Below, piece by piece: positions 4,815 to 54,446 of a stretch of 64,000 nt of DNA. Location of the stretch: assembly GCF_002943715.1 (NCBI RefSeq), contig NZ_MQUA01000013.1:1481001-1545000 (forward strand), written 5' to 3'. Each line of letters opens with the position of its first letter. The stretch's first letter is position 1. The stretch comes from Polaribacter filamentus (lineage in GTDB: Bacteria > Bacteroidota > Bacteroidia > Flavobacteriales > Flavobacteriaceae). The position numbers and the translations under genes were made by a program. The notes beneath the pieces were generated by a model, which made no database searches, was not told the DNA's origin, and saw only the letters and a program-made list of their open reading frames with translations.

Positions 4815-4948
4815 GCCTAACACCGTGTATGGTAAATTGCTATATTTAACATAAACTAAAACTTGTTGCTCTTTTGCAAACTTCTGAATTTCCGCTGGAA
4901 ATTCCTCGTTCACAAAACCGCAACTTTCAATACACAACAACGTTGTGC
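4815..4948 (+). repeat. attC site 4
   Basis: R'' GCCTAAC, R' GTTGTGC, central stem GAATTTCC-GCT-GGAAATTC (type B). Confidence 0.88.
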
Positions 4949-5012
4949 CTCATGCAGAAAAATGACAATTCCTGAAATAGGTTGACAAAAAATTAAACAC
5001 TTTTAGCAACTT

Positions 5013-5423
5013 ATGACACTAACAAAAAAACACCCCTGTCCAAAAAAGAAGTATCAAAAAATTGGTTTTGATCTCAAACTTTCCATCATTGACCAAATTA
5101 CAAACGGTCAGATTTCTGTAAATTATGCAGCTAAATTGCATGGAATTTCTCGATCATCTATTACCTATTGGATGAAAAAATTGCGTTCCTTTGAACAAAA
5201 TTCTAAAACAATGAGTAAAAATCAAGAACTTAAAAAACTCAAAGAACGTGTCGAAGAACTCGAGTTCGTTAAAGACTTTCAACAAATGATAATCGCTGAT
5301 TTTGAGAATAGTACAAATCTTGGATTCGCAAAAAAGTTATTGCCCGAAGCACTGTACAAAGAAGTGGAGAAAAAAATGAAAGACCTTTCAAAGAGAAATG
5401 GATCCACCAATGCTTCGGTATAA
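5013..5423 (+). CDS. IS3-A transposase OrfA, copy 1
   Basis: 136 residues. Helix-turn-helix (ISVNYAAKLHGISRSSITYW) at residues 30-50 followed by a leucine-zipper-like coiled coil (LKKLKERVEELEFVKDF). A run of seven A near 5371-5377 allows -1 frameshifting into OrfB to give the OrfAB transposase. Confidence 0.93.
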   Translation: MTLTKKHPCPKKKYQKIGFDLKLSIIDQITNGQISVNYAAKLHGISRSSITYWMKKLRSFEQNSKTMSKNQELKKLKERVEELEFVKDFQQMIIADFENSTNLGFAKKLLPEALYKEVEKKMKDLSKRNGSTNASV

Positions 5424-6259
5424 GCAGACAGGCTTATTACAAAAGAATCAAAAAACAAGAATTAGAACAAAAACAAGCACTTATTATCTTTGAGCTAATA
5501 AAGCCCATTAGGCTTTTACAGCCTCGTTATGGTTGTGCAAAAGTATATTTGGATATCAAGGGTGATTTAATCAAAAACGGCATTAAAATGGGGCGTGACA
5601 AGTTCTACGCCTTAATGAGAAACTATGGCTTATTGATTAAGAAAACTAAAAAATATCATATTACAACTGACTCTAATCATGGCTTTTACAAATCAGAAGA
5701 TTTAACTGTAAACCTTGAAATTATAAACGCAGAACAAGTATTTGTAAGCGATATAACCTACATTAAATTAGCATCACAACATGCCTATTTAGCGCTGGTT
5801 ACGGATGCCTATTCTAAAAAAGTAATGGGCTATAAAATAGATACAAATATGAAAGTAAAACTAGTAAAAGATGCTCTGGAAATGGCTGGCAATAATCGAA
5901 TTTACAAACATCAAAACACAATTCATCACTCTGATAGAGGGATACAATATTGCTGTCCTGATTTTGCAGATTTTGCCAAAGCAAAAAACATGACTTTAAG
6001 TACAACTCAAAACTCAAGCCCATACGAAAATGCTGTAGCTGAAAGGATTAATGGAATTCTAAAACAAGAATTTGGATTAGGGAAAACGATTCCAAACTTT
6101 AAAACAGCTCAAAAAATGGTCAAACAGGCTATTGAAATTTATAACAACCATAGAAGACATTACTCAGTAGAGTTGAAAACACCCGAGTTTGCTCACAAAA
6201 ACCAACAACACAAATACAAATCTTATAGAAAAATGAAAAAATCTATTTTAAATACGTAA
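5399..6259 (+). CDS. IS3-A transposase OrfB (DDE integrase core), copy 1
   Basis: Read in the -1 frame relative to OrfA; the start given is the Trp codon of WIHQCFGISRQAYY, the usual beginning of OrfB homology, because it is made as a fusion (a TTG at 5549 could start a shorter form). rve integrase core with the three acidic residues in VSDITYIK, HHSDRGIQY and ENAVAERINGILK. Confidence 0.93.
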   Translation, partial: WIHQCFGISRQAYYKRIKKQELEQKQALIIFELIKPIRLLQPRYGCAKVYLDIKGDLIKNGIKMGRDKFYALMRNYGLLIKKTKKYHITTDSNHGFYKSEDLTVNLEIINAEQVFVSDITYIKLASQHAYLALVTDAYSKKVMGYKIDTNMKVKLVKDALEMAGNNRIYKHQNTIHHSDRGIQYCCPDFADFAKAKNMTLSTTQNSSPYENAVAERINGILKQEFGLGKTIPNFKTAQKMVKQAIEIYNNHRRHYSVELKTPEFAHKNQQHKYKSYRKMKKSILNT

Positions 6260-6320
6260 GGAATGTTGGTAACTTTTTTAAAACCCGGAGGGAATTTTTT
6301 AAAAAAGTTATCAATGTTCC
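6260..6320 (+). terminator. Long hairpin after OrfB in IS3-A
   Basis: A stem of about 24 bp starting GGAATGTTG and returning to CAATGTTCC around a CCCGGAGGG loop region. The same hairpin in altered sequence follows OrfB in IS3-B (11193-11252). It may end transcription or be a structural part of the element; each IS copy has it. Confidence 0.5.
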
Positions 6321-6401
6321 GATTACTAAACACTATTTTTGATCATAAAATTCATAACAAAAATTGACAACCTATTTCAGGAGAAGACAAAAAGGAAATC
6401 A

Positions 6402-8662
6402 ATGAATAAGATTGAAGCGATTCAAAACATTAAAAGAGTTGGAAAATTTGTTGATTGTCAAGCTGCAGGTTCGCAATTCCAAGACAATACAATAATTTAC
6501 GGACGAAACACCTTAGGCAAAAGCACTCTTACTGCTATTTTCAGGTCGATTCAAACAGGTGACAAAAAAATAATTGAAGGGAAAAAATCATTCGGAGTAA
6601 CAGGAGACCCAGATATAAAAATCCGATTCACGGATGGCTCCAATAGAACAATTCTTGATTTTAATAGCAATCGATGGACGGAAGGAAATCCAAATATTCA
6701 AATTTTCGACACTCAATTTATTACTGAGAATGTTTTTCAGGGAGAAGAAATTACCTTCGACAACCAAAAGAGTTTAAATCAAATTATTATTGGCGAAAAA
6801 GGAATCGAATTAAACTCTGACATACAAGAGCTTCAAAAGGAGTTGAATGAATTAACCGAAAACAAACGGAAGCTTACTAATAACTTTAACAAGCTTTTGC
6901 CTAGTTCAGATTATGGAAATATCACAATTGAAAAATTTTGTGCCATACCTGAAACAGACAACCTTGATTACCAAATTAAAGCAAAAAAAGAAGAATTACA
7001 ACGCCTTAAAAACAAGGAAGTAATTACCACAACTATTCGTAAACATTTGTCTTTTTTCAATTCCCTCACAGGCTTAGATATCAATAAGATATTAACTAGT
7101 AGAATAAATTTCAACCCTGAAGAAATTAACCACCATATTTCGACACATTGGAAAAACAAGGATGCGAGCAAAGATTTTTTAAGACAGGGACTTGACCTAA
7201 CAAAAGAAGAAAAGGAGTCTTGTGTGTTTTGTGGTCAAAACCTAAATGCAAAAGAGTTGAGCTTATTAGAAACCTATGAGCAGTTCTTTAAAGGCGAATA
7301 TCAATTCCTGCAAAGACAAGTCCAACAAACAAAAAGAAAATTGGATTCAGCTAATTTCGAAAACACTATAAATCTTTTGAAAGCTGACTTTGAAAAATAT
7401 TCTCTTGAATCTAAATTAACCCAAGAGTTCTTTGAACAGATAATCTTAGCGTTTGATTCGTTGAAAAAGGACTTTGAAAGTAAATTTCGAGACTTGTATT
7501 TTACTCCTACAAATGACTATAGTATATTATTTGAACAGCCACTTAAAACCCTGATTGACGAAATTGAAAGAGTTCTTGAAAAATATTTTCCTACGGATGG
7601 TAAAACGATAAGTCAATCACAAATCATTTCAGAAATCAATGAATTAGAATTGCAAAAGCAGAGAATTAGCAAAGCTTTTAAAGACATATGCCAAGAGTTT
7701 GAACAAATAAATAGTTCATTTAACAACAAGAGAACTAAAAGGGAAAATAAAAGAAAGGAATTAGAAGATTACTCATTAGAAGTCTTTGGTTTACATAAAA
7801 TATCAATCAATTACTATTTAAAACGAATGGGGCAAACTTTATGATTGACGACTTACAACCAATAAAGAAGCTCAAAGGTTCTGATGAAAGACTATTCACT
7901 ATAAAGTTCTATGATAAGCACCTTGTAAGTCTTAATTCTGAAAATAACGACATTCCAAACTTCAAAAATTCATTAAGCGAAAGTGATAAGCGTGTTTTGG
8001 CATTTGCCTTTTTCCTTTCTCTTTTAAAGCACGATGAAAGATTAGATAAAAAGATTTTAGTGTTTGATGACCCCTTTTCTTCATTTGATGAAGAAAGGAA
8101 AAGGGATACTATTCAATTACTTGCTGATGTTAAATATGAAAATTTAGGGGTTGAAAAAAAGCCATTGCAGAAGATTATCCTAACACATGAAAAAACTTTC
8201 TATAGGGATGTTTATCTTAAGTCCTTTAGCGACTCTTCAACTCAAACTTTAAAAATCGACTTTGACAAAGTAATTGATGGTATTAATACAAGTAGAATAG
8301 ACTATTGCAATATAGATGAAGAATTCCCAGATGATAAAATAATTGCCAAAATCAAACGAGTAAAGGAAATTCATGACAACCAATCCTATAATGAAAAGTA
8401 CGATGGTGATTGTAGAGTAATTTTAGAAAACATTTTTAAACGGAAATATTATTTTCTGCTTGAAGACGATATTAAATCAAGAAAGAGTGTAAGAACATTT
8501 ACGACTTCTTTAGAAGAGAAATATCCGACAGAAGATTATAACAAGCTATTACGATTATGTAATGACTTGAACATAGAACTACATGACAATGATTCAAATC
8601 CTTCAAATGGCGACCACGGTTCAATTTTGAGAGATTTTTTCGAATGTATTGAGATAATATAA
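6402..8662 (+). pseudogene. RloC/AAA_13-like ATPase with zinc hook, frameshifted (cassette C4)
   Basis: The two reading frames 6402-7844 and 7841-8662 are halves of one ABC/SMC-like ATPase of about 753 residues. First half: Walker A GRNTLGKST (residues 34-42), long coiled coil, and a CVFCGQ zinc-hook motif (Cys274/277) at the hinge. Second half: signature LSESDKR and Walker B KILVFDDPFSSFD. The join reads KRMGANFMIDDL if one G is restored to the GGGG run at 7829-7832, matching the family, so a single-base deletion separates them. Relatives include RloC/PrrC-type anticodon nucleases and other antiphage ATPases; I cannot assign the C-terminal effector. IS3-A lies just upstream in the same cassette. 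Confidence 0.82.
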
Positions 8663-8673
8663 AAAGCACGAAG

Positions 8674-8804
8674 GCACAACAATGTATATAAAAAATAGGC
8701 GAATTAGTAATGAATTCAATGCCTTTGGCTCGTATCAAAGTTTGTACTTAACCGAAAGTTTAGTTCTTCGTAATCGCCTACTTTTCATATACTAACCGTT
8801 GGGC
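8674..8804 (+). repeat. attC site 5 (divergent)
   Basis: R'' GCACAAC, R' GTTGGGC. The arms (ATGTATAT / ATATACTAACC) and an AGGCGA/TCGCCT pair differ from the common types and resemble attC 24. R'' complements the GTTGTGC that opens C4 before the IS. Confidence 0.78.
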
Positions 8805-9318: not shown

Positions 9319-9371
9319 GTAATTTAACGCAACCAAATCGAAATTTGAACATCTAGTAAAAAAATAGAATT

Positions 9372-9737: not shown

Positions 9738-9745
9738 AAAACTAC

Positions 9746-9879
9746 ACACAACACCGTATATAATTTATTGCTTGCTTCTTGCCTACTTGCGAAAGTCCTC
9801 GCGGCCTTTCTTGGTCGGTAAATATTTACTAAATTAGTTGCTTAAAACACGCAACAAACCATATACAACAACGTTGTGC
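9746..9879 (+). repeat. attC site 7
   Basis: R'' ACACAAC (complement of GTTGTGT opening C6), R' GTTGTGC, type A stem. Confidence 0.88.
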
Positions 9880-9943
9880 GTAAGCTGAAAAACTGTATCG
9901 TCCTAAAATAGGTTGACTAAAAATTAAACACTTTTAGTACACT

Positions 9944-10327
9944 ATGGAAACACCAACAAATCAGGCCTGTCGAAAAGACAGCTATCAAAAAGTTACTTTC
10001 GAGTACAAACTTTTTGTCATTGACCAAATCAATAATGGTCAAATATCCGCTAACTTTGCTTCTAAGAAGTACAATATTTCACGAACAACAATACACTACT
10101 GGATGAAAAAATTAAGCAACTATTCCAATCAAAAAACCTTTATTTCAAAAGATGATGAGATTAAAAAACTCAAGGAAAGAATCGAGGATCTAGAAGGAAT
10201 CAAAGAATTTCAACAAGAATTAATTGTTGAATTTGAGAAAGTTACGGGGGAGGAACTCTCAAAAAAGTACTTGCCCGAGGGATTGGCAAACGAAATTCAA
10301 AGAAAGAAGAAAAAGCTTTCAAAATAA
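9944..10327 (+). CDS. IS3-B transposase OrfA, copy 1
   Basis: 127 residues. Helix-turn-helix (ISANFASKKYNISRTTIHYW) then a coiled coil (IKKLKERIEDLEGIKEF). An A-rich stretch close to its end allows a -1 shift into OrfB. Confidence 0.93.
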   Translation: METPTNQACRKDSYQKVTFEYKLFVIDQINNGQISANFASKKYNISRTTIHYWMKKLSNYSNQKTFISKDDEIKKLKERIEDLEGIKEFQQELIVEFEKVTGEELSKKYLPEGLANEIQRKKKKLSK

Positions 10328-10329
10328 AA

Positions 10330-11193
10330 TGGATTTACGAATCGCTCGGGATTACAAAACAAGCCTATTATCAAGGTGTTGAAAGGGAAAAAGTAAAAGA
10401 ATTGGCAAGAGAAAAAGTGCTGAATTTAGTGCTTGAATACCGAAAAACACTACCCAAAACTGGAACAAGAAAGCTGTACGAATATTTAGAACCAAAACTA
10501 ATGGAAATCAATATCAAAATGGGGCGAGATGCCATAAACGATTTACTACGCTTAAGAGGAATGCTGATTAAAAAAACCAAGCGTTATTTTATTACAACAG
10601 ACTCCAAACACTTCTTTTATAAATCGCCTAATTTATTGACTGACTTGAAAATAACTCATAGCGAACAAGTCTTTGTAAGCGATATTACTTACATTAAAAC
10701 CGATTCGGGTCACGCCTATTTAGCCCTTGTAACCGATGCGTATTCTCGTAAAATTATGGGCTGGAACTTGCAAGACAATATGAAAGTTTCGATGGTAAAA
10801 GAAGCATTAAGTATGGCTCATAAAAACTGCATTTTTAATCACAAAAACATCATTCATCATTCCGACAGAGGAATCCAATATTGCTGTCCAGATTACTCAC
10901 AATATGCACAAAATAAAGGATTTATATTAAGCACAACCCAACAGTATGACCCTTATGAAAACGCAATTGCAGAACGAATAAATGGTATTTTGAAGTACGA
11001 ATTTGCATTAAAAAACACTATTAAATCTGTAGAAATCGCTCAAAAAATGGTGAAAGAAGCTGTAGCACTTTACAACAACCAAAGAATGCATTGGAGTTTA
11101 GATTTAAAAAAACCACAAGAAGTTCATTTACAATACAATCAACATGAAAACAAAAATTATAAACGAGTTAAAGTTACTACTTTAGCGCCGTAG
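10330..11193 (+). CDS. IS3-B transposase OrfB, copy 1
   Basis: Given from the Trp codon of WIYESLGITKQAYY in the -1 frame; TTG 10402 is the first stand-alone start. rve DDE core: VSDITYIK, HHSDRGIQY, ENAIAERINGILK. Confidence 0.93.
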   Translation, partial: WIYESLGITKQAYYQGVEREKVKELAREKVLNLVLEYRKTLPKTGTRKLYEYLEPKLMEINIKMGRDAINDLLRLRGMLIKKTKRYFITTDSKHFFYKSPNLLTDLKITHSEQVFVSDITYIKTDSGHAYLALVTDAYSRKIMGWNLQDNMKVSMVKEALSMAHKNCIFNHKNIIHHSDRGIQYCCPDYSQYAQNKGFILSTTQQYDPYENAIAERINGILKYEFALKNTIKSVEIAQKMVKEAVALYNNQRMHWSLDLKKPQEVHLQYNQHENKNYKRVKVTTLAP

Positions 11194-11347
11194 GAATGTT
11201 GATAAGTTTTTAAAACCCGAAGGGAAATTTTTAAAAAACTTATCAATGTTCCGGCAATAAAGTATAAATTTGAAAAGCAATTATTAACCTTAAAAAAGGT
11301 CAACGTATAATAGGATAAGACAAACAGAACGTAAAATACTGAAATTA

Positions 11348-11875
11348 ATGAGCCAAACTAAAATATTTACAACTCGAAAACTGGAAAAAGTTACGAAAGA
11401 ATTTATATGTGAAAATGACAAAATTGAAAACGAATATTTAGGCGATTGGACTTCTACTCTATTTTATGTAAGTCATAAAAAATGTTGGTTGTTAATTAAC
11501 AAACTGACCAAATATCTTCTGATTTTACCAAATGTAAAAAAAACTGATTTGAAAAATTTATCTTCTATTTTCAAAGAAACTTTTTATGCGCAATTAATCT
11601 ACGACGGAATTATAATTGAATATGAATTGGTTGAAAAAATAATAGGAGAAACTAAATTGTATGAAACAAATAATGACCGAAGTACGAATGGTTCTCTAAA
11701 TAATTGTCTGTTATTTCTTGAAGATTGGAAATATGAATTTGGTGATTATGATAATATGAATTTTAGAGATTTAAATGGTAGACTAAATAGCTCACCGAAT
11801 AAAATGCTAAAATGGAAATATCCGAAAGAGAAAATGGACGAAACAATAAAAGCCTACGCACAACACCGTATATAA
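11348..11875 (+). CDS. Unrecognised soluble protein (cassette C7)
   Basis: 175 residues, no signal peptide, no membrane segment; mixed alpha/beta with several Trp. The ATG lies 25 bp after the IS3-B right end, so the IS occupies its 5' leader. The last residues (AQHRI) and the stop are encoded by the attC arm, so the natural C-terminus depends on the recombination site. Confidence 0.72.
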   Translation: MSQTKIFTTRKLEKVTKEFICENDKIENEYLGDWTSTLFYVSHKKCWLLINKLTKYLLILPNVKKTDLKNLSSIFKETFYAQLIYDGIIIEYELVEKIIGETKLYETNNDRSTNGSLNNCLLFLEDWKYEFGDYDNMNFRDLNGRLNSSPNKMLKWKYPKEKMDETIKAYAQHRI

Positions 11876-14127: not shown

Positions 14128-15982
14128 ATCGAGTAGACGGCTGACTACCAAAAAGTAGCCAGTGCGCCTCTCACACCACCGTACGTACGGGTCTCGTATA
14201 CGGCGGTTCACCAAATTGAAGTTTGCTTCTTATTTATGTAATCTACCATGGGTTTGTAACCTTTTCTTTTAAGTATAGAAAGGGTAATTGTAGTTTTAAG
14301 TATAGGGCTTTGGGCTACTGCCCAGCCTCCCATTCTTGTTCTACTCCAAGCATACGCTTGTCCGTTTTCTATTCCTAATCGAATTAGGCTTTTACGTTTT
14401 CTTTCTAGTTTTTTCCAATCATGCCAAATGCAATATCGTAACCTATTTCGCAACCATTCATCCAACTTTTTAAGTTTAGCATAAATGTTTGTTAATCGGT
14501 AATTATTCATCCAGCCCCTGCAAACTTGATTTAGTCGCTCGAGTCTTTCTAGTAAAGACATTGGTTTGGTTTTCTTGGTTAAACTTTTAAGATTGCGCTT
14601 AAACTTTTCCCAACTTTCCTGTTTTACAACTAGTTGATACTGCCCTTTTATGCCTTTCTTATAGATTGGCACAAAACCGTGTCCTAGCAATTTAAAATTT
14701 ACAGGTCTGCGTATACCACTTTTAGCACCATTTATAGGGAGCTTTAATTTGTCTCTAAGAAACAAATACATGCTATTTCCTATTCGTTTTGCCTCGCTTT
14801 TGCTTTTAGCATACATACTAAAATCGTCTGCATAACGCACATATCGTACCCCTTGTTTTTGCATTTCTTTATCCAGAACGTCTAATATAATATTAGATAG
14901 TAATGGACTTATTGGACTGCCTTGTGGAATTCCTTTTCGGCGTTTATAAAGTTTTCCATTTATTGAAATGGGAACTCTAAGCCATTTTCGGATTAAACGC
15001 AAGGTGGTTCGGCATTGTACTTTGTTGTAAATAAGTTGCAGTAGGATGCAATGGTCTACTTCATCGAAGAATCCTTTTAAGTCAATATCTACAATATCCT
15101 GATAGCCATCATTGATGTATCGCTGGGCTTGTAGTACTGCCTTTTGGATGTTCTTCTGTGGGCGAAATCCGTAACTAAAGGTTTCAAATTCGTATTCGAA
15201 CTTAGTCATTAATTGTTGGTTTACCCCCTGTTGTAACCATCTGTCTACTACCGTTGGTATTCCTAAAAGTCGGGTTTTACCATTTCCTTTAGGGATCGTT
15301 ACTCCTAAAATTGCTTGTGGTACATAGCTATTATTACAAATGGATAGCAGTAGTTCTGACCTATTTTCCCTAATGTATTCAGGGAGTTTTTGATGCGACA
15401 TACTGTCTATTCCGCTTGCTCCTTTATTGCGCATAACTTGACGTGCTGCTTTATAAAGATTCGTAGCTTCTAATACTTGGGCAATCATAGTTTTAAATAA
15501 TTTGTTTACTCCTGTTGAGCTAAGACTAGGCTAGCAACGCCTCCTAGTCGAATTACAACGTAATTTAATGTTCAGTCCTTCCTTACTTGTGAGACCGTGA
15601 GGGTTTTCCCCTCCTCGTTTCCTGTAAGTACTATGACTTCTGCTGACTTCTCTATACAGCCAACTCGTGGCTCTAGAGACCTCCCCAGGTAATGGCATCT
15701 TCTTTCACTCAATTCCTGCCGTATCTACATACTTACCCTTTTGTTACTCTTTTGGGCGTTACAATGATGTGCTTGCTTACCCAAGTAAATATGCCTCTGT
15801 ATACGATTTCTGTTCGTCAGTACCGAGTTTTGTAGTCTCGCTTTCTTCAGATGTAACTTCGCAGTTACCACCCTTGCGACTTACTAATGCTTCAAGACGT
15901 TACTCCTGTGCATAAGGGACTTGCACCCTCTAGTTGAATAACTTATCTTGCGATAAGTTAAAGATGCCCATACTGGGCACAC
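14128..15982 (-). mobile_element. Group IIC-attC intron, copy 2
   Basis: 1855 bp, same ends as copy 1 (5' GTGTGCCCAG, 3' CTACTCGAT on the minus strand) and same insertion point inside the attC R'' box. Differs from copy 1 at a few non-coding positions (for example C at 15538 where copy 1 has T). Confidence 0.95.
14208..15488 (-). CDS. ltrA: Group II intron reverse transcriptase/maturase, copy 2
   Basis: 426 residues, identical to the copies at 1351 and 46608: RT palm with RYVRYADDF, maturase X domain, no endonuclease domain. Confidence 0.96.
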   Translation of the reverse strand: MIAQVLEATNLYKAARQVMRNKGASGIDSMSHQKLPEYIRENRSELLLSICNNSYVPQAILGVTIPKGNGKTRLLGIPTVVDRWLQQGVNQQLMTKFEYEFETFSYGFRPQKNIQKAVLQAQRYINDGYQDIVDIDLKGFFDEVDHCILLQLIYNKVQCRTTLRLIRKWLRVPISINGKLYKRRKGIPQGSPISPLLSNIILDVLDKEMQKQGVRYVRYADDFSMYAKSKSEAKRIGNSMYLFLRDKLKLPINGAKSGIRRPVNFKLLGHGFVPIYKKGIKGQYQLVVKQESWEKFKRNLKSLTKKTKPMSLLERLERLNQVCRGWMNNYRLTNIYAKLKKLDEWLRNRLRYCIWHDWKKLERKRKSLIRLGIENGQAYAWSRTRMGGWAVAQSPILKTTITLSILKRKGYKPMVDYINKKQTSIW

Positions 15983-17046: not shown

Positions 17047-17180
17047 TGGCAACACCGTATATAATTTATTGCTGGCTTCTAGCCTACTTACGAAAGTCCT
17101 CGCGGACTTTCTTTGTCCGTAATTATTTACTAAATTAGGTGCTTAAAACACGCAACAAACCATATACAACAACGTTGTGC
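17047..17180 (+). repeat. attC site 12
   Basis: R'' TGGCAAC, R' GTTGTGC, type A stem. Confidence 0.88.
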
Positions 17181-17244
17181 GTCATTTGAGAAAATGACAA
17201 TTCCTGAAATAGGTTGACAAAAAATTAAACACTTTTAGCAACTT

Positions 17245-17655
17245 ATGACACTAACAAAAAAACACCCCTGTCCAAAAAAGAAGTATCAAAAAATTGGTTT
17301 TGATCTCAAACTTTCCATCATTGACCAAATTACAAACGGTCAGATTTCTGTAAATTATGCAGCTAAATTGCATGGAATTTCTCGATCATCTATTACCTAT
17401 TGGATGAAAAAATTGCGTTCCTTTGAACAAAATTCTAAAACAATGAGTAAAAATCAAGAACTTAAAAAACTCAAAGAACGTGTCGAAGAACTCGAGTTCG
17501 TTAAAGACTTTCAACAAATGATAATCGCTGATTTTGAGAATAGTACAAATCTTGGATTCGCAAAAAAGTTATTGCCCGAAGCACTGTACAAAGAAGTGGA
17601 GAAAAAAATGAAAGACCTTTCAAAGAGAAATGGATCCACCAATGCTTCGGTATAA
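17245..17655 (+). CDS. IS3-A transposase OrfA, copy 2
   Basis: Identical to the protein at 5013: helix-turn-helix plus coiled coil. Confidence 0.93.
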   Translation: MTLTKKHPCPKKKYQKIGFDLKLSIIDQITNGQISVNYAAKLHGISRSSITYWMKKLRSFEQNSKTMSKNQELKKLKERVEELEFVKDFQQMIIADFENSTNLGFAKKLLPEALYKEVEKKMKDLSKRNGSTNASV

Positions 17656-18491
17656 GCAGACAGGCTTATTACAAAAGAATCAAAAAACAAGAATTAGAAC
17701 AAAAACAAGCACTTATTATCTTTGAGCTAATAAAGCCCATTAGGCTTTTACAGCCTCGTTATGGTTGTGCAAAAGTATATTTGGATATCAAGGGTGATTT
17801 AATCAAAAACGGCATTAAAATGGGGCGTGACAAGTTCTACGCCTTAATGAGAAACTATGGCTTATTGATTAAGAAAACTAAAAAATATCATATTACAACT
17901 GACTCTAATCATGGCTTTTACAAATCAGAAGATTTAACTGTAAACCTTGAAATTATAAACGCAGAACAAGTATTTGTAAGCGATATAACCTACATTAAAT
18001 TAGCATCACAACATGCCTATTTAGCGCTGGTTACGGATGCCTATTCTAAAAAAGTAATGGGCTATAAAATAGATACAAATATGAAAGTAAAACTAGTAAA
18101 AGATGCTCTGGAAATGGCTGGCAATAATCGAATTTACAAACATCAAAACACAATTCATCACTCTGATAGAGGGATACAATATTGCTGTCCTGATTTTGCA
18201 GATTTTGCCAAAGCAAAAAACATGACTTTAAGTACAACTCAAAACTCAAGCCCATACGAAAATGCTGTAGCTGAAAGGATTAATGGAATTCTAAAACAAG
18301 AATTTGGATTAGGGAAAACGATTCCAAACTTTAAAACAGCTCAAAAAATGGTCAAACAGGCTATTGAAATTTATAACAACCATAGAAGACATTACTCAGT
18401 AGAGTTGAAAACACCCGAGTTTGCTCACAAAAACCAACAACACAAATACAAATCTTATAGAAAAATGAAAAAATCTATTTTAAATACGTAA
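17631..18491 (+). CDS. IS3-A transposase OrfB, copy 2
   Basis: DDE core identical to the copy at 5399; expressed by -1 frameshift from OrfA. Confidence 0.93.
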   Translation, partial: WIHQCFGISRQAYYKRIKKQELEQKQALIIFELIKPIRLLQPRYGCAKVYLDIKGDLIKNGIKMGRDKFYALMRNYGLLIKKTKKYHITTDSNHGFYKSEDLTVNLEIINAEQVFVSDITYIKLASQHAYLALVTDAYSKKVMGYKIDTNMKVKLVKDALEMAGNNRIYKHQNTIHHSDRGIQYCCPDFADFAKAKNMTLSTTQNSSPYENAVAERINGILKQEFGLGKTIPNFKTAQKMVKQAIEIYNNHRRHYSVELKTPEFAHKNQQHKYKSYRKMKKSILNT

Positions 18492-18627
18492 GGAATGTTG
18501 GTAACTTTTTTAAAACCCGGAGGGAATTTTTTAAAAAAGTTATCAATGTTCCGATTACTAAACACTATTTTTGATCATAAAATTCATAACAAAAATTGAC
18601 AACCTATTTCAGGAGAAGACACAAACT

Positions 18628-29213: not shown

Positions 29214-29345
29214 TGCCAACACCATATATAATTTATTGCTAGTTCTAGCCTATTTACGAAAGTCCTCGCGGACTTTCTTGGTCGGTAATTATTTACTAAA
29301 TTAGTTGCTGAAACAAGCAACAAACCATATACAAAAACGTTGTAG
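29214..29345 (+). repeat. attC site 21
   Basis: R'' TGCCAAC, R' GTTGTAG, type A stem. Confidence 0.88.
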
Positions 29346-29409
29346 CCAATTTGAGAAAATGACAATTCCTGAAATAGGTTGACAAAAAATTAAACACTTT
29401 TAGCAACTT

Positions 29410-29820
29410 ATGACACTAACAAAAAAACACCCCTGTCCAAAAAAGAAGTATCAAAAAATTGGTTTTGATCTCAAACTTTCCATCATTGACCAAATTACAA
29501 ACGGTCAGATTTCTGTAAATTATGCAGCTAAATTGCATGGAATTTCTCGATCATCTATTACCTATTGGATGAAAAAATTGCGTTCCTTTGAACAAAATTC
29601 TAAAACAATGAGTAAAAATCAAGAACTTAAAAAACTCAAAGAACGTGTCGAAGAACTCGAGTTCGTTAAAGACTTTCAACAAATGATAATCGCTGATTTT
29701 GAGAATAGTACAAATCTTGGATTCGCAAAAAAGTTATTGCCCGAAGCACTGTACAAAGAAGTGGAGAAAAAAATGAAAGACCTTTCAAAGAGAAATGGAT
29801 CCACCAATGCTTCGGTATAA
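29410..29820 (+). CDS. IS3-A transposase OrfA, copy 3
   Basis: Identical to the protein at 5013. Confidence 0.93.
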   Translation: MTLTKKHPCPKKKYQKIGFDLKLSIIDQITNGQISVNYAAKLHGISRSSITYWMKKLRSFEQNSKTMSKNQELKKLKERVEELEFVKDFQQMIIADFENSTNLGFAKKLLPEALYKEVEKKMKDLSKRNGSTNASV

Positions 29821-30656
29821 GCAGACAGGCTTATTACAAAAGAATCAAAAAACAAGAATTAGAACAAAAACAAGCACTTATTATCTTTGAGCTAATAAAG
29901 CCCATTAGGCTTTTACAGCCTCGTTATGGTTGTGCAAAAGTATATTTGGATATCAAGGGTGATTTAATCAAAAACGGCATTAAAATGGGGCGTGACAAGT
30001 TCTACGCCTTAATGAGAAACTATGGCTTATTGATTAAGAAAACTAAAAAATATCATATTACAACTGACTCTAATCATGGCTTTTACAAATCAGAAGATTT
30101 AACTGTAAACCTTGAAATTATAAACGCAGAACAAGTATTTGTAAGCGATATAACCTACATTAAATTAGCATCACAACATGCCTATTTAGCGCTGGTTACG
30201 GATGCCTATTCTAAAAAAGTAATGGGCTATAAAATAGATACAAATATGAAAGTAAAACTAGTAAAAGATGCTCTGGAAATGGCTGGCAATAATCGAATTT
30301 ACAAACATCAAAACACAATTCATCACTCTGATAGAGGGATACAATATTGCTGTCCTGATTTTGCAGATTTTGCCAAAGCAAAAAACATGACTTTAAGTAC
30401 AACTCAAAACTCAAGCCCATACGAAAATGCTGTAGCTGAAAGGATTAATGGAATTCTAAAACAAGAATTTGGATTAGGGAAAACGATTCCAAACTTTAAA
30501 ACAGCTCAAAAAATGGTCAAACAGGCTATTGAAATTTATAACAACCATAGAAGACATTACTCAGTAGAGTTGAAAACACCCGAGTTTGCTCACAAAAACC
30601 AACAACACAAATACAAATCTTATAGAAAAATGAAAAAATCTATTTTAAATACGTAA
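29796..30656 (+). CDS. IS3-A transposase OrfB, copy 3
   Basis: DDE core as at 5399, read by -1 frameshift from OrfA. Confidence 0.93.
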   Translation, partial: WIHQCFGISRQAYYKRIKKQELEQKQALIIFELIKPIRLLQPRYGCAKVYLDIKGDLIKNGIKMGRDKFYALMRNYGLLIKKTKKYHITTDSNHGFYKSEDLTVNLEIINAEQVFVSDITYIKLASQHAYLALVTDAYSKKVMGYKIDTNMKVKLVKDALEMAGNNRIYKHQNTIHHSDRGIQYCCPDFADFAKAKNMTLSTTQNSSPYENAVAERINGILKQEFGLGKTIPNFKTAQKMVKQAIEIYNNHRRHYSVELKTPEFAHKNQQHKYKSYRKMKKSILNT

Positions 30657-30789
30657 GGAATGTTGGTAACTTTTTTAAAACCCGGAGGGAATTTTTTAAA
30701 AAAGTTATCAATGTTCCGATTACTAAACACTATTTTTGATCATAAAATTCATAACAAAAATTGACAACCTATTTCAGGAGAAGACACAA

Positions 30790-35632: not shown

Positions 35633-35766
35633 TGCCAACACCGTATATAATTTATTGCTAGCTTTTTGCTTACTTGCGAAAGTCCTCGCGGACTTTCTTG
35701 GTTGGTAATTATTTACTAAATTAGTTGCTTGAAACACGCAACAAACCATATACAACAACGTTGTAG
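35633..35766 (+). repeat. attC site 27
   Basis: R'' TGCCAAC, R' GTTGTAG, type A stem. Confidence 0.88.
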
Positions 35767-35830
35767 CCAATTTAAGAAAATGTATCGTCCTAAAATAGGT
35801 TGACTAAAAATTAAACACTTTTAGCACACT

Positions 35831-36214
35831 ATGGAAACACCAACAAATCAGGCCTGTCGAAAAGACAGCTATCAAAAAGTTACTTTCGAGTACAAACTTT
35901 TTGTCATTGACCAAATCAATAATGGTCAAATATCCGCTAACTTTGCTTCTAAGAAGTACAATATTTCACGAACAACAATACACTACTGGATGAAAAAATT
36001 AAGCAACTATTCCAATCAAAAAACCTTTATTTCAAAAGATGATGAGATTAAAAAACTCAAGGAAAGAATCGAGGATCTAGAAGGAATCAAAGAATTTCAA
36101 CAAGAATTAATTGTTGAATTTGAGAAAGTTACGGGGGAGGAACTCTCAAAAAAGTACTTGCCCGAGGGATTGGCAAACGAAATTCAAAGAAAGAAGAAAA
36201 AGCTTTCAAAATAA
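35831..36214 (+). CDS. IS3-B transposase OrfA, copy 2
   Basis: Identical to the protein at 9944. Confidence 0.93.
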   Translation: METPTNQACRKDSYQKVTFEYKLFVIDQINNGQISANFASKKYNISRTTIHYWMKKLSNYSNQKTFISKDDEIKKLKERIEDLEGIKEFQQELIVEFEKVTGEELSKKYLPEGLANEIQRKKKKLSK

Positions 36215-36216
36215 AA

Positions 36217-37080
36217 TGGATTTACGAATCGCTCGGGATTACAAAACAAGCCTATTATCAAGGTGTTGAAAGGGAAAAAGTAAAAGAATTGGCAAGAGAA
36301 AAAGTGCTGAATTTAGTGCTTGAATACCGAAAAACACTACCCAAAACTGGAACAAGAAAGCTGTACGAATATTTAGAACCAAAACTAATGGAAATCAATA
36401 TCAAAATGGGGCGAGATGCCATAAACGATTTACTACGCTTAAGAGGAATGCTGATTAAAAAAACCAAGCGTTATTTTATTACAACAGACTCCAAACACTT
36501 CTTTTATAAATCGCCTAATTTATTGACTGACTTGAAAATAACTCATAGCGAACAAGTCTTTGTAAGCGATATTACTTACATTAAAACCGATTCGGGTCAC
36601 GCCTATTTAGCCCTTGTAACCGATGCGTATTCTCGTAAAATTATGGGCTGGAACTTGCAAGACAATATGAAAGTTTCGATGGTAAAAGAAGCATTAAGTA
36701 TGGCTCATAAAAACTGCATTTTTAATCACAAAAACATCATTCATCATTCCGACAGAGGAATCCAATATTGCTGTCCAGATTACTCACAATATGCACAAAA
36801 TAAAGGATTTATATTAAGCACAACCCAACAGTATGACCCTTATGAAAACGCAATTGCAGAACGAATAAATGGTATTTTGAAGTACGAATTTGCATTAAAA
36901 AACACTATTAAATCTGTAGAAATCGCTCAAAAAATGGTGAAAGAAGCAGTAGCACTTTACAACAACCAAAGAATGCATTGGAGTTTAGATTTAAAAAAAC
37001 CACAAGAAGTTCATTTACAATACAATCAACATGAAAACAAAAATTATAAACGAGTTAAAGTTACTACTTTAGCGCCGTAG
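36217..37080 (+). CDS. IS3-B transposase OrfB, copy 2
   Basis: DDE core as at 10330, made by -1 frameshift from OrfA. Confidence 0.93.
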   Translation, partial: WIYESLGITKQAYYQGVEREKVKELAREKVLNLVLEYRKTLPKTGTRKLYEYLEPKLMEINIKMGRDAINDLLRLRGMLIKKTKRYFITTDSKHFFYKSPNLLTDLKITHSEQVFVSDITYIKTDSGHAYLALVTDAYSRKIMGWNLQDNMKVSMVKEALSMAHKNCIFNHKNIIHHSDRGIQYCCPDYSQYAQNKGFILSTTQQYDPYENAIAERINGILKYEFALKNTIKSVEIAQKMVKEAVALYNNQRMHWSLDLKKPQEVHLQYNQHENKNYKRVKVTTLAP

Positions 37081-37215
37081 GAATGTTGATAAGTTTTTAA
37101 AACCCGAAGGGAAATTTTTAAAAAACTTATCAATGTTCCGGCAATAAAGTATAAATTTGAAAAGCAATTATTAACCTTAAAAAAGGTCAACGTATAATAG
37201 GATAAGACAAAAATC

Positions 37216-46527: not shown

Positions 46528-48382
46528 ATCGAGTAGACGGCTGACTACCAAAAAGTAGCCAGTGCGCCTCTCACACCACCGTACGTACGGGTCTCGTATA
46601 CGGCGGTTCACCAAATTGAAGTTTGCTTCTTATTTATGTAATCTACCATGGGTTTGTAACCTTTTCTTTTAAGTATAGAAAGGGTAATTGTAGTTTTAAG
46701 TATAGGGCTTTGGGCTACTGCCCAGCCTCCCATTCTTGTTCTACTCCAAGCATACGCTTGTCCGTTTTCTATTCCTAATCGAATTAGGCTTTTACGTTTT
46801 CTTTCTAGTTTTTTCCAATCATGCCAAATGCAATATCGTAACCTATTTCGCAACCATTCATCCAACTTTTTAAGTTTAGCATAAATGTTTGTTAATCGGT
46901 AATTATTCATCCAGCCCCTGCAAACTTGATTTAGTCGCTCGAGTCTTTCTAGTAAAGACATTGGTTTGGTTTTCTTGGTTAAACTTTTAAGATTGCGCTT
47001 AAACTTTTCCCAACTTTCCTGTTTTACAACTAGTTGATACTGCCCTTTTATGCCTTTCTTATAGATTGGCACAAAACCGTGTCCTAGCAATTTAAAATTT
47101 ACAGGTCTGCGTATACCACTTTTAGCACCATTTATAGGGAGCTTTAATTTGTCTCTAAGAAACAAATACATGCTATTTCCTATTCGTTTTGCCTCGCTTT
47201 TGCTTTTAGCATACATACTAAAATCGTCTGCATAACGCACATATCGTACCCCTTGTTTTTGCATTTCTTTATCCAGAACGTCTAATATAATATTAGATAG
47301 TAATGGACTTATTGGACTGCCTTGTGGAATTCCTTTTCGGCGTTTATAAAGTTTTCCATTTATTGAAATGGGAACTCTAAGCCATTTTCGGATTAAACGC
47401 AAGGTGGTTCGGCATTGTACTTTGTTGTAAATAAGTTGCAGTAGGATGCAATGGTCTACTTCATCGAAGAATCCTTTTAAGTCAATATCTACAATATCCT
47501 GATAGCCATCATTGATGTATCGCTGGGCTTGTAGTACTGCCTTTTGGATGTTCTTCTGTGGGCGAAATCCGTAACTAAAGGTTTCAAATTCGTATTCGAA
47601 CTTAGTCATTAATTGTTGGTTTACCCCCTGTTGTAACCATCTGTCTACTACCGTTGGTATTCCTAAAAGTCGGGTTTTACCATTTCCTTTAGGGATCGTT
47701 ACTCCTAAAATTGCTTGTGGTACATAGCTATTATTACAAATGGATAGCAGTAGTTCTGACCTATTTTCCCTAATGTATTCAGGGAGTTTTTGATGCGACA
47801 TACTGTCTATTCCGCTTGCTCCTTTATTGCGCATAACTTGACGTGCTGCTTTATAAAGATTCGTAGCTTCTAATACTTGGGCAATCATAGTTTTAAATAA
47901 TTTGTTTACTCCTGTTGAGCTAAGACTAGGCTAGCAATGCCTCCTAGTCGAATTACAACGTAATTTAATGTTCAGTCCTTCCTTACTTGTGAGACCGTGA
48001 GGGTTTTTCCCTCCTCGTTTCCTGTAAGTACTATGACTTCTGCTGACTTCTCTATACAGCCAACTCGTGGCTCTAGAGACCTCCCCAGGTAATGGCATCT
48101 TCTTTCACTCAATTCCTGCCGTATCTACATACTTACCCTTTTGTTACTCTTTTGGGCGTTACAATGATGTGCTTGCTTACCCAAGTAAATATGCCTCTGT
48201 ATACGATTTCTGTTCGTCAGTACCGAGTTTTGTAGTCTCGCTTTCTTCAGATGTAACTTCGCAGTTACCACCCTTGCGACTTACTAATGCTTCAAGACGT
48301 TACTCCTGTGCATAAGGGACTTGCACCCTCTAGATGAATAACTTATCTTGCGATAAGTTAAAGATGCCCATACTGGGCACAC
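46528..48382 (-). mobile_element. Group IIC-attC intron, copy 3
   Basis: 1855 bp, same ends and insertion point as copies 1 and 2; one substitution from copy 1 (an A in CTCTAGATGAATAAC near 48333). Confidence 0.95.
46608..47888 (-). CDS. ltrA: Group II intron reverse transcriptase/maturase, copy 3
   Basis: 426 residues, identical to the copies at 1351 and 14208. Confidence 0.96.
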   Translation of the reverse strand: MIAQVLEATNLYKAARQVMRNKGASGIDSMSHQKLPEYIRENRSELLLSICNNSYVPQAILGVTIPKGNGKTRLLGIPTVVDRWLQQGVNQQLMTKFEYEFETFSYGFRPQKNIQKAVLQAQRYINDGYQDIVDIDLKGFFDEVDHCILLQLIYNKVQCRTTLRLIRKWLRVPISINGKLYKRRKGIPQGSPISPLLSNIILDVLDKEMQKQGVRYVRYADDFSMYAKSKSEAKRIGNSMYLFLRDKLKLPINGAKSGIRRPVNFKLLGHGFVPIYKKGIKGQYQLVVKQESWEKFKRNLKSLTKKTKPMSLLERLERLNQVCRGWMNNYRLTNIYAKLKKLDEWLRNRLRYCIWHDWKKLERKRKSLIRLGIENGQAYAWSRTRMGGWAVAQSPILKTTITLSILKRKGYKPMVDYINKKQTSIW

Positions 48383-48959: not shown

Positions 48960-48967
48960 AAAACTGG

Positions 48968-49168: not shown

Positions 49169-50635
49169 TTATCTATTTTTAGATTCCAGTTTTGTAACCA
49201 TATCTTTTGCATAACTATTTTCTGAATCCAGTGCAAATGCTTTTTTATATGCCTTTAATGCCTTTTTTTTATTACCACTAGAATAATATATCTGACCTAA
49301 ACTATCCCATATGTTACTATTATTAGGAAATAATTCAATGTTTAATTCAGCGATTATTATGGCTTTATCAAGCTTATTATTTCTCGAAAGTATTCCGCCC
49401 AATCTACTCAAATAAAAGGGTTTGTCTATTTTATCACCAAATTTCATTTTGATGCTAGATGCTAGTTCGTTGGGTGCTCCTTTATAGTGATATGCAAAGT
49501 CTAAAAGTGTACTTACAAAATTTACTTCAATGTTTTTTGGGGTATATGTTGGATCAAAAAACATTTTATCAACCCACCACCCAATTCTAGACACACTATC
49601 TGTTAATGAAGAGGTCGCGTATAAAATCACTATATCTTCCTCAGGAAACCATCTAAAATCGTAAAAGAAAGTTGCATTGCTACCATCATGAGCGACCATA
49701 TTTGTTCCTCGTGGAGTTTTAAAAATTACCCATCCGTATGCATAATAACTTGTTTCTCCCTCAAATTCGAGAATATAGGGAGTGGTTAACTTCTTTGTGG
49801 CAGATTTGGATAGCACTTTATTTGACCTTAAGGCTAGATACCATTTAAACATATCTTCTTGAGTAGAGTTAATTCCTCCATTTCCAAGTAATACCCGAGA
49901 TACTTTACCATCCTGTTGGTAACGTGATACCATACTTCCTGTATTTATAACTTGATAATTATAGCCTTTAGCTAGAATACAGTTTTCCCATTTTGGCAAC
50001 AGATACCCTGTATGATACATTTCAGCAGGTAGAAATAAATACTCATTTAAAAATGACTCATAAGATTGCCGAGAAACCAATTCAATAATTCTTGCTAAAA
50101 TACTATAGCCTGCATTAGAATATTCGTGCTTTTGACCTGGTTGATGTAATAATTTTGTTGCAAACAATTGTTTAAAATAATCATTAACAGAAATATGATC
50201 AAAGTCACTATTACCAATACCCTGAGTAATGCCTGCTGAATGAATTAATAATTGATGAATTGTGATATTTTTTTTGTCTTCTGGTAAATTTTTAAAAAAC
50301 TTACTAATTGGATCTTCCTCTTTTAATTTTCCTTGTTCCTCTAATTTTAAAATTGCCGTTGCAGTAAATTGCTTAGAAACTGAGCCAATGTCAAAAACTG
50401 TTTTGGTAGTATTTCTAACATTCTTTTCTTTATCTGCCATTCCAAAAGCTTCATTATAAAGAACCTTATCACCCCTTGCTATTAGAACAGCTCCAGTTAG
50501 TCCATTTTTTTCACTTTCCTGTAAATAGGCTGATATTCTATCAATAGCTTGCTTATCCTCATTTTGCTGAGCAGTTACCATAAATGTGCCTGTAGTTAAA
50601 TAAGCAAGCAGGATGGTTAATTTTGTAATTTTCAT
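49169..50635 (-). CDS. Serine hydrolase, beta-lactamase/class C fold with TPR (cassette C35)
   Basis: 488 residues on the minus strand, the only non-mobile cassette gene so oriented. Signal peptide (MVTAQQ); catalytic SxxK Ser85-Val-Ser-Lys88 in DIGSVSKQF, YSN at 172-174, HDGS near 315. C-terminal part (KLDKAIIIAELNIELFPNNSNIWDSLGQIYYSSG) is TPR-like. Periplasmic serine hydrolase of the beta-lactamase-related (DUF3471-free) group. Divergent from the histidine kinase across 198 bp that would hold both promoters. Confidence 0.88.
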   Translation of the reverse strand: MKITKLTILLAYLTTGTFMVTAQQNEDKQAIDRISAYLQESEKNGLTGAVLIARGDKVLYNEAFGMADKEKNVRNTTKTVFDIGSVSKQFTATAILKLEEQGKLKEEDPISKFFKNLPEDKKNITIHQLLIHSAGITQGIGNSDFDHISVNDYFKQLFATKLLHQPGQKHEYSNAGYSILARIIELVSRQSYESFLNEYLFLPAEMYHTGYLLPKWENCILAKGYNYQVINTGSMVSRYQQDGKVSRVLLGNGGINSTQEDMFKWYLALRSNKVLSKSATKKLTTPYILEFEGETSYYAYGWVIFKTPRGTNMVAHDGSNATFFYDFRWFPEEDIVILYATSSLTDSVSRIGWWVDKMFFDPTYTPKNIEVNFVSTLLDFAYHYKGAPNELASSIKMKFGDKIDKPFYLSRLGGILSRNNKLDKAIIIAELNIELFPNNSNIWDSLGQIYYSSGNKKKALKAYKKAFALDSENSYAKDMVTKLESKNR

Positions 50636-50833
50636 TTTACTATATATTTTAAATTATTCATCAAAGAAACAAGCATTTAGTCTTTTAAAATTTATAAAGT
50701 TATATACTTCCCAGTATTGGTTACTAAACCCTTAAAAAAAGGGATATCTTGTTTTTATAGACTTTCATAACATATTTTAGCCCTTAGCTACCAAATCTTA
50801 AAATGAATTGATTTAAAGATATATCTTAGCCTT

Positions 50834-52559: not shown

Positions 52560-52588
52560 TTATAGCTACCGTATTAATGAATAACTGT

Positions 52589-52718
52589 TGCCAACACCGT
52601 GTATAATTCATTGCTAGTTCTAGCTTACTTACGAAAACCCTCGCGGATTTTCTATTCAGTTTTTATTAACTAAATTAGATGCTTAAACACGCAACAAACC
52701 ATATACAAACCGTTGGCA
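52589..52718 (+). repeat. attC site 36
   Basis: R'' TGCCAAC, R' GTTGGCA, type A' stem. Confidence 0.88.
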
Positions 52719-52742
52719 AACATTTAGAAAAATTGAAGATTT

Positions 52743-53447
52743 ATGAAAATTATTACTTTAATTATACTTTTAGCTTCTTTAAATGCTTTTTCTCAAGAAA
52801 TCGGAATTTCAGACTTGGAAAAGTTAAAACAAAACTTGACTTCTGAAATAAATAAGCTAAATGATTCTTTAAAAAAAGTTAACATTCAAATAGCCGTCTT
52901 GAAATCTAAAGAAATCAAAAAAATGGTTTCGGATTCATCTTTAGTTTCTACAGCAAGAAAAGGAGCTTATATAAAAAAATCGTCTAACGTAATGGGAAAA
53001 ATAATCACCAAGTTGACAGAAAAAAAACAAGTGACTTTATTGGATTATTTTGATGGCTATTTTGGTGTTTGCACTGATTCAATTTGTGGATATATGAACG
53101 AATTATGGATTGAAAAGAACGAAAAAATATATGAATTTATAAAAGTAAAAAAGCAAGAACAAAAAGAACTTAAAAGATTAGAATACGAAAGTAATCTTAA
53201 ATTAAAAAAAGCAGAATATGCTAAATTAGAAAAAAATTATATTAAAAAATATGGACAGAAAACTTATAATAAACTAAAAGAAGGACATTACTGGATTGGA
53301 ATGAATAGAGAAATGGCTACAATCTCATTGGGAAGTCCTAAAGACATCAATAGAACTGTTGGCTCTTGGGGAGTTCACGAACAATGGGTTTATGAAAACA
53401 GATATCTATATTTTGAAAACGGAAAATTGACTTCTTACCAAAATTAA
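52743..53447 (+). CDS. Secreted coiled-coil/SH3-like protein (cassette C36)
   Basis: 234 residues. Signal peptide ending NAFSQ; coiled coil (residues 22-60); an SH3-like segment with a CGY; a second charged helix; and a C-terminal HYWIGMNREMATISLGSP that resembles the SmpA/OmlA (BamE-like) turn. Envelope location likely; function unknown. Confidence 0.7.
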   Translation: MKIITLIILLASLNAFSQEIGISDLEKLKQNLTSEINKLNDSLKKVNIQIAVLKSKEIKKMVSDSSLVSTARKGAYIKKSSNVMGKIITKLTEKKQVTLLDYFDGYFGVCTDSICGYMNELWIEKNEKIYEFIKVKKQEQKELKRLEYESNLKLKKAEYAKLEKNYIKKYGQKTYNKLKEGHYWIGMNREMATISLGSPKDINRTVGSWGVHEQWVYENRYLYFENGKLTSYQN

Positions 53448-53456
53448 AAAACGATT

Positions 53457-53589
53457 TGCCAACACCGTGTATGGTAAATTGCTGGTAAAAGCCTACTTAC
53501 GAAAATCCTCGGGGATTTTCTTGGTTTGTGTTTTATTTACTAAATTTAGTGCTTAAACTTGCAACTTTTCCTACACAACAACGTTGCCA
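53457..53589 (+). repeat. attC site 37
   Basis: R'' TGCCAAC, R' GTTGCCA, type A' stem. Confidence 0.88.
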
Positions 53590-53605
53590 TTAATACGAAA
53601 AAAAC

Positions 53606-53646
53606 TTTGCGGATTGAATAAAATGTAGTAACTTTGTAATTACAAA
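53606..53646 (+). promoter_or_regulatory. Bacteroidota-type promoter with palindromic operator for mazEF
   Basis: TTTG at 53606-53609, 19 bp, then TAACTTTG (53629-53636), the TTTG / TAnnTTTG pattern. A perfect 14-bp palindrome TTTGTAATTACAAA (53633-53646) overlaps the -7 element and would be a natural operator for autorepression by the MazE-MazF complex. The antitoxin ATG follows at 53655. Confidence 0.72.
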
Positions 53647-53654
53647 ATAAAGTT

Positions 53655-53900
53655 ATGGAAACAGCAATTATACAAATCGGAAATTCAAAAGGTCTGCGTT
53701 TAAGTAAGACTATTTTGGAAAAGTACAATATAAAAGACAAAGTTGAAATGATTTTGGAAAAGGGACAAATTATCCTAAAACCAATTGATAGCCCAAGAAA
53801 AAATTGGGAAAAAGCCTTTGAAAAAATGCGTGAGAATAATGACGACAGATTACTTTTCAATGATGTATTCGAGGATGAAAACTTTGAGGAATGGAATTAA
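53655..53900 (+). CDS. mazE: MazE-like antitoxin (cassette C37)
   Basis: 81 residues. AbrB/MazE swapped-hairpin start (AIIQIGNSKGLRLSKTILEKY) at residues 4-24, then an acidic C-terminal tail (NDDRLLFNDVFEDENFEEW) that would wrap MazF. Overlaps mazF by 10 nt. Confidence 0.9.
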   Translation: METAIIQIGNSKGLRLSKTILEKYNIKDKVEMILEKGQIILKPIDSPRKNWEKAFEKMRENNDDRLLFNDVFEDENFEEWN

Positions 53901-54214
53901 AGCAATACTCAATAGTACTTGTAAATCTTGACCCGACAATTGGTAGTGAAATTAAAAAAACTCGTCCTTGCGTGATTATATCGCCAAATGAAATAAATAA
54001 GTTTCTGAAGACAATTGTTGTTGCGCCAATGACAACAAATTTGAAAAAGTATCCGACCAGAATCGAAGTCAAGCATAACGACAAAAAAGGAATGATTGCA
54101 ATCGACCAAATTCGGACAATTGACAAATCGAGAATACTAAAAAAGTTTGACCGACTATCAAAATCTGAAATACAGAAATGCAAAGATATTATACGAGAAA
54201 CGTTTGTGGATTAA
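53891..54214 (+). CDS. mazF: MazF-like endoribonuclease toxin (cassette C37)
   Basis: 107 residues. MazF/PemK fold: DPTIGSEIKKTRPCVIISP at residues 15-33, the T/Q core VVAPMTTN and MIAIDQIRTIDKSRI. Cleaves single-stranded RNA. Translation is coupled to the antitoxin. Confidence 0.92.
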   Translation: MELKQYSIVLVNLDPTIGSEIKKTRPCVIISPNEINKFLKTIVVAPMTTNLKKYPTRIEVKHNDKKGMIAIDQIRTIDKSRILKKFDRLSKSEIQKCKDIIRETFVD

Positions 54215-54251
54215 AATCATAAACTGACAATAATAACGCTGAAAGTACTAA

Positions 54252-54382
54252 TGGCAACACCGTATATAATTTATTGCTAGTTCCAGCCTACTTACGAAAA
54301 CCCTCGCGGATTTTCTATTCAGTTTTTATTAACTAAATTAGGTGCTTAAACACGCAACAAACCATATACAAGCACGTTAGCT
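54252..54382 (+). repeat. attC site 38 (last recognised)
   Basis: R'' TGGCAAC, R' GTTAGCT, type A' stem. Opens C38, for which no closing R'' AGCTAAC is seen to the right. Confidence 0.86.
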
Positions 54383-54446
54383 TTAATGCTAAAAAATGTA
54401 TCGTCCTAAAATAGGTTGACTAAAAATTAAACACTTTTAGTACACT

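Follow-up and report, generated by a model that had tools for sequence, protein, structure and literature searches.

Insertion sequences aimed at the attC sites of integron cassettes have been described within the IS1111 elements, e.g., ISKpn4 and ISPst6; in the parts of the source drawn on here, these code for a DEDD transposase of the IS110/IS1111 type that is guided by a seekRNA, and one end of the attC itself is the target (PMC11187229). Among retroelements, group IIC introns are located at terminators, and the related IIC-attC introns enter the bottom strand of attC at R'', opposite to the cassettes, as far as the cited sections describe them (PMC7923331). IS3-family elements that use palindromes have also been described, as IS1397, ISKpn1, and ISPsy8 insert within REP palindromes, according to the portion of the work used here (PMC1525189), and an IS3-family element has been found within the coding sequence of a V. 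cholerae cassette (PMC11023631, cited in part). The initial annotation of the DNA analyzed here held that the known attC-targeting insertion sequences belong to the IS1111 group and that no attC-linked IS3 group was known. This is consistent with the open PMC literature, in which, surveyed mostly by listing, we found no attC-targeting IS3 element or group; nor did we find there an IS3 group with terminators as targets.

The two elements described here, IS-A and IS-B, work like the IS1111-attC group and the IIC-attC introns without belonging to either. Like the first, they are insertion sequences aimed at cassette attC sites (PMC11187229, in the part cited), but they have an rve (DDE-type) IS3 transposase and cut 20 to 21 nt past the GTT, outside the attC, and their open reading frames gave only rve and IS3 matches, with no DEDD transposase among them. 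Like group IIC and IIC-attC introns in the sections cited (PMC7923331), IS-A, IS-B, and a sister lineage of IS3 elements stand beside the stem-loop of attC sites or terminators; unlike the IIC-attC introns, IS-A and IS-B lie beyond R' and in the cassette direction, and we detected no RVT domain in their open reading frames and no Rfam intron inside them. With the REP-targeting elements they share the IS3 family, a palindromic target, and, in part of the copies, a 3-bp duplication, the last reported for ISPsy8 in the portion used (PMC1525189). However, IS-A and IS-B insert outside the stem at a set distance, 20 to 21 nt past the GTT, and their target is attC. In the V. cholerae case, as in ours, IS3-family copies in a cassette array recombine with each other, but one of the two copies there transposed into a cassette coding sequence and the two are opposed, and an attC rule is not mentioned in the part of the source that we cite (PMC11023631).

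The window, i.e., the whole stretch of 64,000 nt that was analyzed, is part of a large integron cassette array, and a predicted integron integrase of 384 aa is encoded ~31 kb upstream of it (221.8 bits for NF040815, with a cut-off of 220, and 205.9 bits for TIGR02249, with a cut-off of 265). To call attC sites we built a covariance model, R1, from the 23 IS-free attCs of the window only; in their alignment, R''/L'' pairs with L'/R' over 17 pairs, 8 of which have changes on both sides. R1 called 38 attCs in the window, every one of them on the plus strand, and six are followed by an IS. The 23 training sequences are among these 38 matches, and none of the 23 precedes IS-A or IS-B. An attC ending at its R' box was called before each of the six IS copies (Table 1). 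A hand-made score of the attC stem was dropped for R1, as it did not separate positive-control attCs from random GTTs.

Table 1. Positions in the window of the IS-A and IS-B copies, their genes, the attC sites that precede them, and the group II introns
Feature	Position (nt)	Strand	Evidence and remarks
Group II introns, three, nearly identical	~1271-3125, 14128-15982, 46528-48382	-	RT/maturase of 426 aa; Rfam RF02001, RF00029
attC before IS-A copy 1	4815-4948	+	GTT 4942; R1 91.4 bits
IS-A copy 1	4963-6389	+	Ends and flanks; 4-nt flanking repeat AAAA
IS-A copy 1, OrfA	5013-5423	+
IS-A copy 1, OrfB	5420-6259	+	Open frame
attC before IS-B copy 1	9746-9879	+	GTT 9873; R1 131.7 bits
IS-B copy 1	9894-11322	+	Ends and flanks; 3-nt flanking repeat AAC
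IS-B copy 1, OrfA	9944-10327	+
IS-B copy 1, OrfB	10402-11193	+
attC before IS-A copy 2	17047-17180	+	GTT 17174; R1 140.4 bits
IS-A copy 2	17195-18621	+	Flanking repeat absent
attC before IS-A copy 3	29214-29345	+	GTT 29339; R1 131.9 bits
IS-A copy 3	29360-30786	+	Flanking repeat absent
attC before IS-B copy 2	35633-35766	+	GTT 35760; R1 138.5 bits
IS-B copy 2	35781-37209	+	Flanked on both sides by an A-run (AAAA)
attC before IS-B copy 3	54252-54382	+	GTT 54376; R1 137.5 bits
IS-B copy 3	54397-55825	+	A-run flanks on both sides; presumed IS30-like transposase gene next

The initial annotation placed the start of all six copies 21 nt past the G of the attC GTT, in a single orientation, and both statements are correct for every copy. 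Its claim that each insertion leaves an intact cassette gene downstream holds for five of the six, after which the next open reading frame matches a non-mobile Pfam family, but not for the IS-B copy that ends at 55825, where the next gene codes for a transposase (HTH_38 and rve) that we take to be IS30-like. The element to which this gene belongs (window ~55840 to 56940) adjoins the IS-B copy, and two relatives of the IS in other loci (L055 and L078) also adjoin, by eye, the end of a similar element. The orientation of the three group II introns is opposite to that of the cassettes, and each of them ends at the expected R'' box of an attC, as IIC-attC introns do; introns and insertion sequences occupy opposite ends of the attC. 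At three loci (L008, L013, and L014), an attC has the same intron end sequence before it and an IS after it.

IS-A (1427 bp) and IS-B (1429 bp) are 66% identical at the DNA level, and the view that they are two different IS3-family elements was borne out, as both are ordinary members of this family. Each of them codes for an OrfA with a helix-turn-helix match (HTH_Tnp_1 in IS-A) and for an OrfB with an rve domain (PF00665), and both have inverted repeats of the type TG...CA at their ends. The OrfB of IS-A passes the NCBIfam IS3 profile NF033516 with 211.7 bits (cut-off, 160), and its frame is -1 relative to that of OrfA, with a presumed frameshift leading to OrfAB. The closest OrfB to that of IS-A (91% identical) was found in Flavobacterium sp. 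28A. Flanking duplications of at least 3 bp, identified by eye and including CGA, AAT, and AAC, are present in 8 of the 14 copies found in this genome and absent from the other 6; among 63 full elements, 21 have duplications of at least 3 bp, and 37 lack any duplication of 2 bp or more.

These 14 copies (seven of IS-A, six of IS-B, and one A/B hybrid) are distributed over two contigs, and every one of them begins exactly 21 nt past the G of the attC GTT, in the cassette direction. That the intervening bases vary, as noted for the window copies, is true of the entire set, as the 14 copies follow 14 different 21-mers, some of which do not have a terminal A-run (GTTGTAACACATTGTTAACGA and GTTGTGTTTAATACAAATTAC). 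Five more left ends in this genome come from diverged elements, with the GTT at 20 nt in one and at 21 nt in none.

Such uniformity could have been produced by a few events at +21, with cassette shuffling and flank exchange between IS copies making the rest. There are signs of this kind of traffic: the hybrid element (L008) combines a left end of IS-A with a right end of IS-B, one cassette is found behind both an IS-A copy (L007) and an IS-B copy (window 9894 to 11400), which share their right flank but not the left 21-mer, and six copies are duplication-free. IS copies thus also recombine and reshuffle their flanks. However, the duplications are kept in 8 of the 14 copies, all of the left 21-mers differ, and the same offset is seen again with diverged elements from other genomes and families. 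A handful of ancestral events accounts for the missing duplications but not for the offset rule, and we consider it very improbable as the source of the pattern.

The evidence from other genomes comes from a search for left ends with a 26-nt pattern (up to 2 mismatches) that was blind to attC. Across 397 Flavobacteriaceae genomes, 48 were positive, including this one, and together with loci found earlier they provided at least 111 distinct left ends outside this genome, those with fewer than 60 nt upstream being left out. The distances to the GTT, proposed earlier as a check in relatives, are not scattered: among the 111 left ends listed, 85 have the GTT at 20 or 21 nt (48 at 21 and 37 at 20), with a background of 0.008 per position calculated over offsets 24 to 32 and 38 to 53, i.e., without a second peak at 34 nt, which corresponds to the L' region and comprises 14 of the 111. 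Other offsets account for at most four left ends each, and the antisense triplet (AAC) was found at 20 or 21 nt in none of the 111 listed. The 26 listed left ends that have no GTT at 20 or 21 nt include clear non-attC sites (L059 and L141), and the rule, although strong, thus has exceptions. An offset of always exactly 21 nt is therefore accurate for this genome, whereas in relatives it is 20 or 21 nt and not all copies obey. A wider search covered 395 genomes of the class, 10 of which, besides this one, held 14 left ends, with the GTT at 21 nt in seven and at 20 nt in none; as one of these sites (L251) is the same as one already counted (L046), 6 of 13 new ends are at 21 nt. The seven ends at 21 nt belong to six genomes from five families other than that of the window. 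Many insertions are kin by descent or through cassette shuffling, and these counts are not all independent events.

An alternative put forward in the initial annotation was that the IS prefers an A-tract, located as a run 16 to 21 nt into the leader, while selection keeps the cassette genes and other insertions are lost. A is frequent in the leaders from about +15 to +24, and several insertions do lie in A-runs, but in this respect the IS-bearing leaders and the IS-free cassettes of the window are alike position by position. At least three A's in the last 4 nt were found at 48 of 100 IS sites (this genome included) versus 12 of 27 IS-free cassettes of the window when the corresponding positions are compared, so the IS sites are no richer in A. 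In 23 of the 100, these four positions hold at most one A, which means that the insertions do not share only an A-tract. In addition, the A-rich zone is wide, yet the insertions fall on two positions, and the preference would leave unaccounted for the single orientation (antisense, 0 of the 111 left ends listed). The A-tract is cassette background, and we give almost no credence to it as the target. With neither scattered offsets nor sharing of an A-tract alone, an attC-linked IS3 group is supported, even if 26 of the 111 listed left ends lack the GTT at 20 or 21 nt. In the 27 IS-free window cassettes, a motif [AC]A[TG] is nearly fixed at +10 to +12 from the GTT, beyond the R' box, and IS-bearing leaders look alike.

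We also searched with R1 upstream of the left ends (E up to 2), leaving 7 partial or weak non-window matches out of the final count over 111 sites. An attC was called directly upstream at 68 of the 111 listed, with the GTT at 21 nt in 34, at 20 in 29, at 23 in two, at 19 in one, at 14 in one, and no GTT in the remaining one. R1 called no attC at the other 43 listed, 22 of which nevertheless have the GTT at 20 or 21 nt; some resemble diverged attCs and others secondary sites, and a full-sensitivity search returned weak attC signals at a few of these 22. A strong short hairpin is present at only 1 of the 43, and at some GTT sites no stem is visible (e.g., L076, L087, and L165), from which it may be that a short sequence, and not the structure, is enough for targeting. 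None of the 14 class-level sites was called by R1, and several of them show, by eye, long stems that end in the GTT box.

These elements belong to an IS3 clade found mostly 20 to 21 nt past the G of the attC GTT, in one orientation, and we regard it as likely that its transposase recognizes the R' end (the predicted foot of the stem) and cuts at a measured distance, whatever the bases found there. A set distance from a conserved mark, together with free sequence at the cut, suggests that the transposase, or a complex containing it, would bind the mark, reach beyond it, and cut at that distance. Tn7 behaves in this way at attTn7, where a conserved mark is bound and spared and insertion takes place at a set distance beyond it, with a separate target protein. 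IS-A and IS-B resemble Tn7 in outline but carry no gene for a target protein, and their recognizer would presumably be the transposase itself, with the distance measured from the foot of the stem. The attC would probably stay usable after insertion, with the core boxes and the crossover base whole on the left side, while the IS would become the head of the downstream cassette, and the integrase could then move it along with the gene. If this is true, the elements that target integron cassettes would include an IS3 (DDE-type) group, one that spares the attC and rides inside the downstream cassette, with a bearing on the remodeling of the large cassette arrays of Bacteroidota.

The targets of a sister lineage provide a point of comparison. 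Of the outgroup elements, four whose left flank could be read (L063, L064, L092, and L095; OrfB, 42 to 45% identical) are preceded by terminator-like hairpins. When sister left ends were searched for in 249 genomes, 25 were positive; together with further stretches and known loci, this gave 52 left ends. Counting as strong only the hairpins within 60 nt upstream that exceeded the 95th percentile of control windows drawn from their own loci, 34 of the 52 have a strong terminator-like hairpin upstream and 18 have none. The distance from the last G-C pair to the IS is 16 nt in 6 of these 34, 17 nt in 8, 18 nt in 8, and 19 nt in 3, i.e., 16 to 19 nt in 25, with 9 elsewhere, and the 8 nt after the stem contain on average 6.7 T's. 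In the attC sites, the stem modeled by R1 closes with the first four bases of R', which places its foot 16 to 17 nt from the IS, or 17 to 18 nt from it when the count is made from the GTT. The distance from stem to IS is thus alike in the two lineages, 16 to 18 nt for the attC foot and mostly 16 to 19 nt for the G-C stem of the terminators.

In a tree of 60 OrfB proteins, rooted at the midpoint and with a very long outgroup row, the attC-type clade comprises 50 rows (support, 99/98), 33 of them with the GTT at 20 or 21 nt, 8 classified as other, and 9 as unknown, and IS-A and IS-B fall in one of its subclades (99/98). The terminator-type clade contains seven rows (100/99), with L064 outside. 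The class "other" (8 rows) groups copies with an offset of 19 or 23 nt, those that are off-site, and relics of this genome, and "unknown" (11 rows in the tree) those with an unreadable flank. The label for GTT at 20 or 21 nt (33 rows) requires 11 changes because of these two classes, and the hairpin label (8 rows) requires 2. In the simplest history, an ancestor would have inserted after terminator hairpins and one of its descendants would have switched to attC, like the group IIC introns; given the midpoint rooting and the long outgroup, the direction from terminator to attC is one that we infer.

That the distance is similar in both lineages favors recognition of the stem, while the GTT sites that have no strong hairpin favor recognition of the sequence. 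We find it plausible, although somewhat short of probable, that this is an IS3 lineage using hairpins as rulers, which would read the foot of a hairpin, belonging to an attC site in one branch and to a terminator in the other, and cut ~17 nt beyond, independently repeating the shift of the group IIC introns and colonizing arrays while sparing both the attC and the gene. A different possibility is that the transposase is kept in place by a helper, which could be the integron integrase or some other protein bound at the R'/L' boxes, so that the IS follows a protein rather than the DNA. The mark does lie within the core box of the integrase itself, and the predicted integrase is encoded at ~31 kb from the window. 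We nonetheless judge a helper unlikely, as the spacing is similar at the terminator-like hairpins of the sister lineage, where the integrase is not expected, and as GTT sites without an attC by the model are also used (22 of 43). The transposase, moreover, sets the target in IS1397 and ISKpn1, as cited in the part of PMC1525189 used here. The terminator and attC lineages make a ready pair for learning how an IS3 transposase reads its target and measures distance, and convergence would be plain if DNA transposons and unrelated retroelements had both come to use these two targets.

Last, some minor features of the elements and of the array can be described. The motif TAnnTTTG, presumably the -7 box of Bacteroidota, is located 56 to 58 nt from the right end in both IS-A (window 6325 to 6405) and IS-B, with AGGA near the end of the element, and the two could act as promoter and ribosome site for the downstream cassette gene. 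We rejected an outward promoter as a feature of the family, as the spacing of 56 to 58 nt is found in only four elements (IS-A, IS-B, L043, and L015). TAnnTTTG appears near the right end in 6 of 32 right-end clusters, versus 1.57 expected from shuffles and 1 in the reverse direction. The window also contains, at 49169 to 50635 on the minus strand and thus opposite to the direction of the array, a gene for a beta-lactamase-family protein (PF00144) with TPR repeats, and at 57453 to 59825, also on the minus strand, a gene for a PAS histidine kinase of 790 aa that includes four nearly identical repeats of 351 bp.
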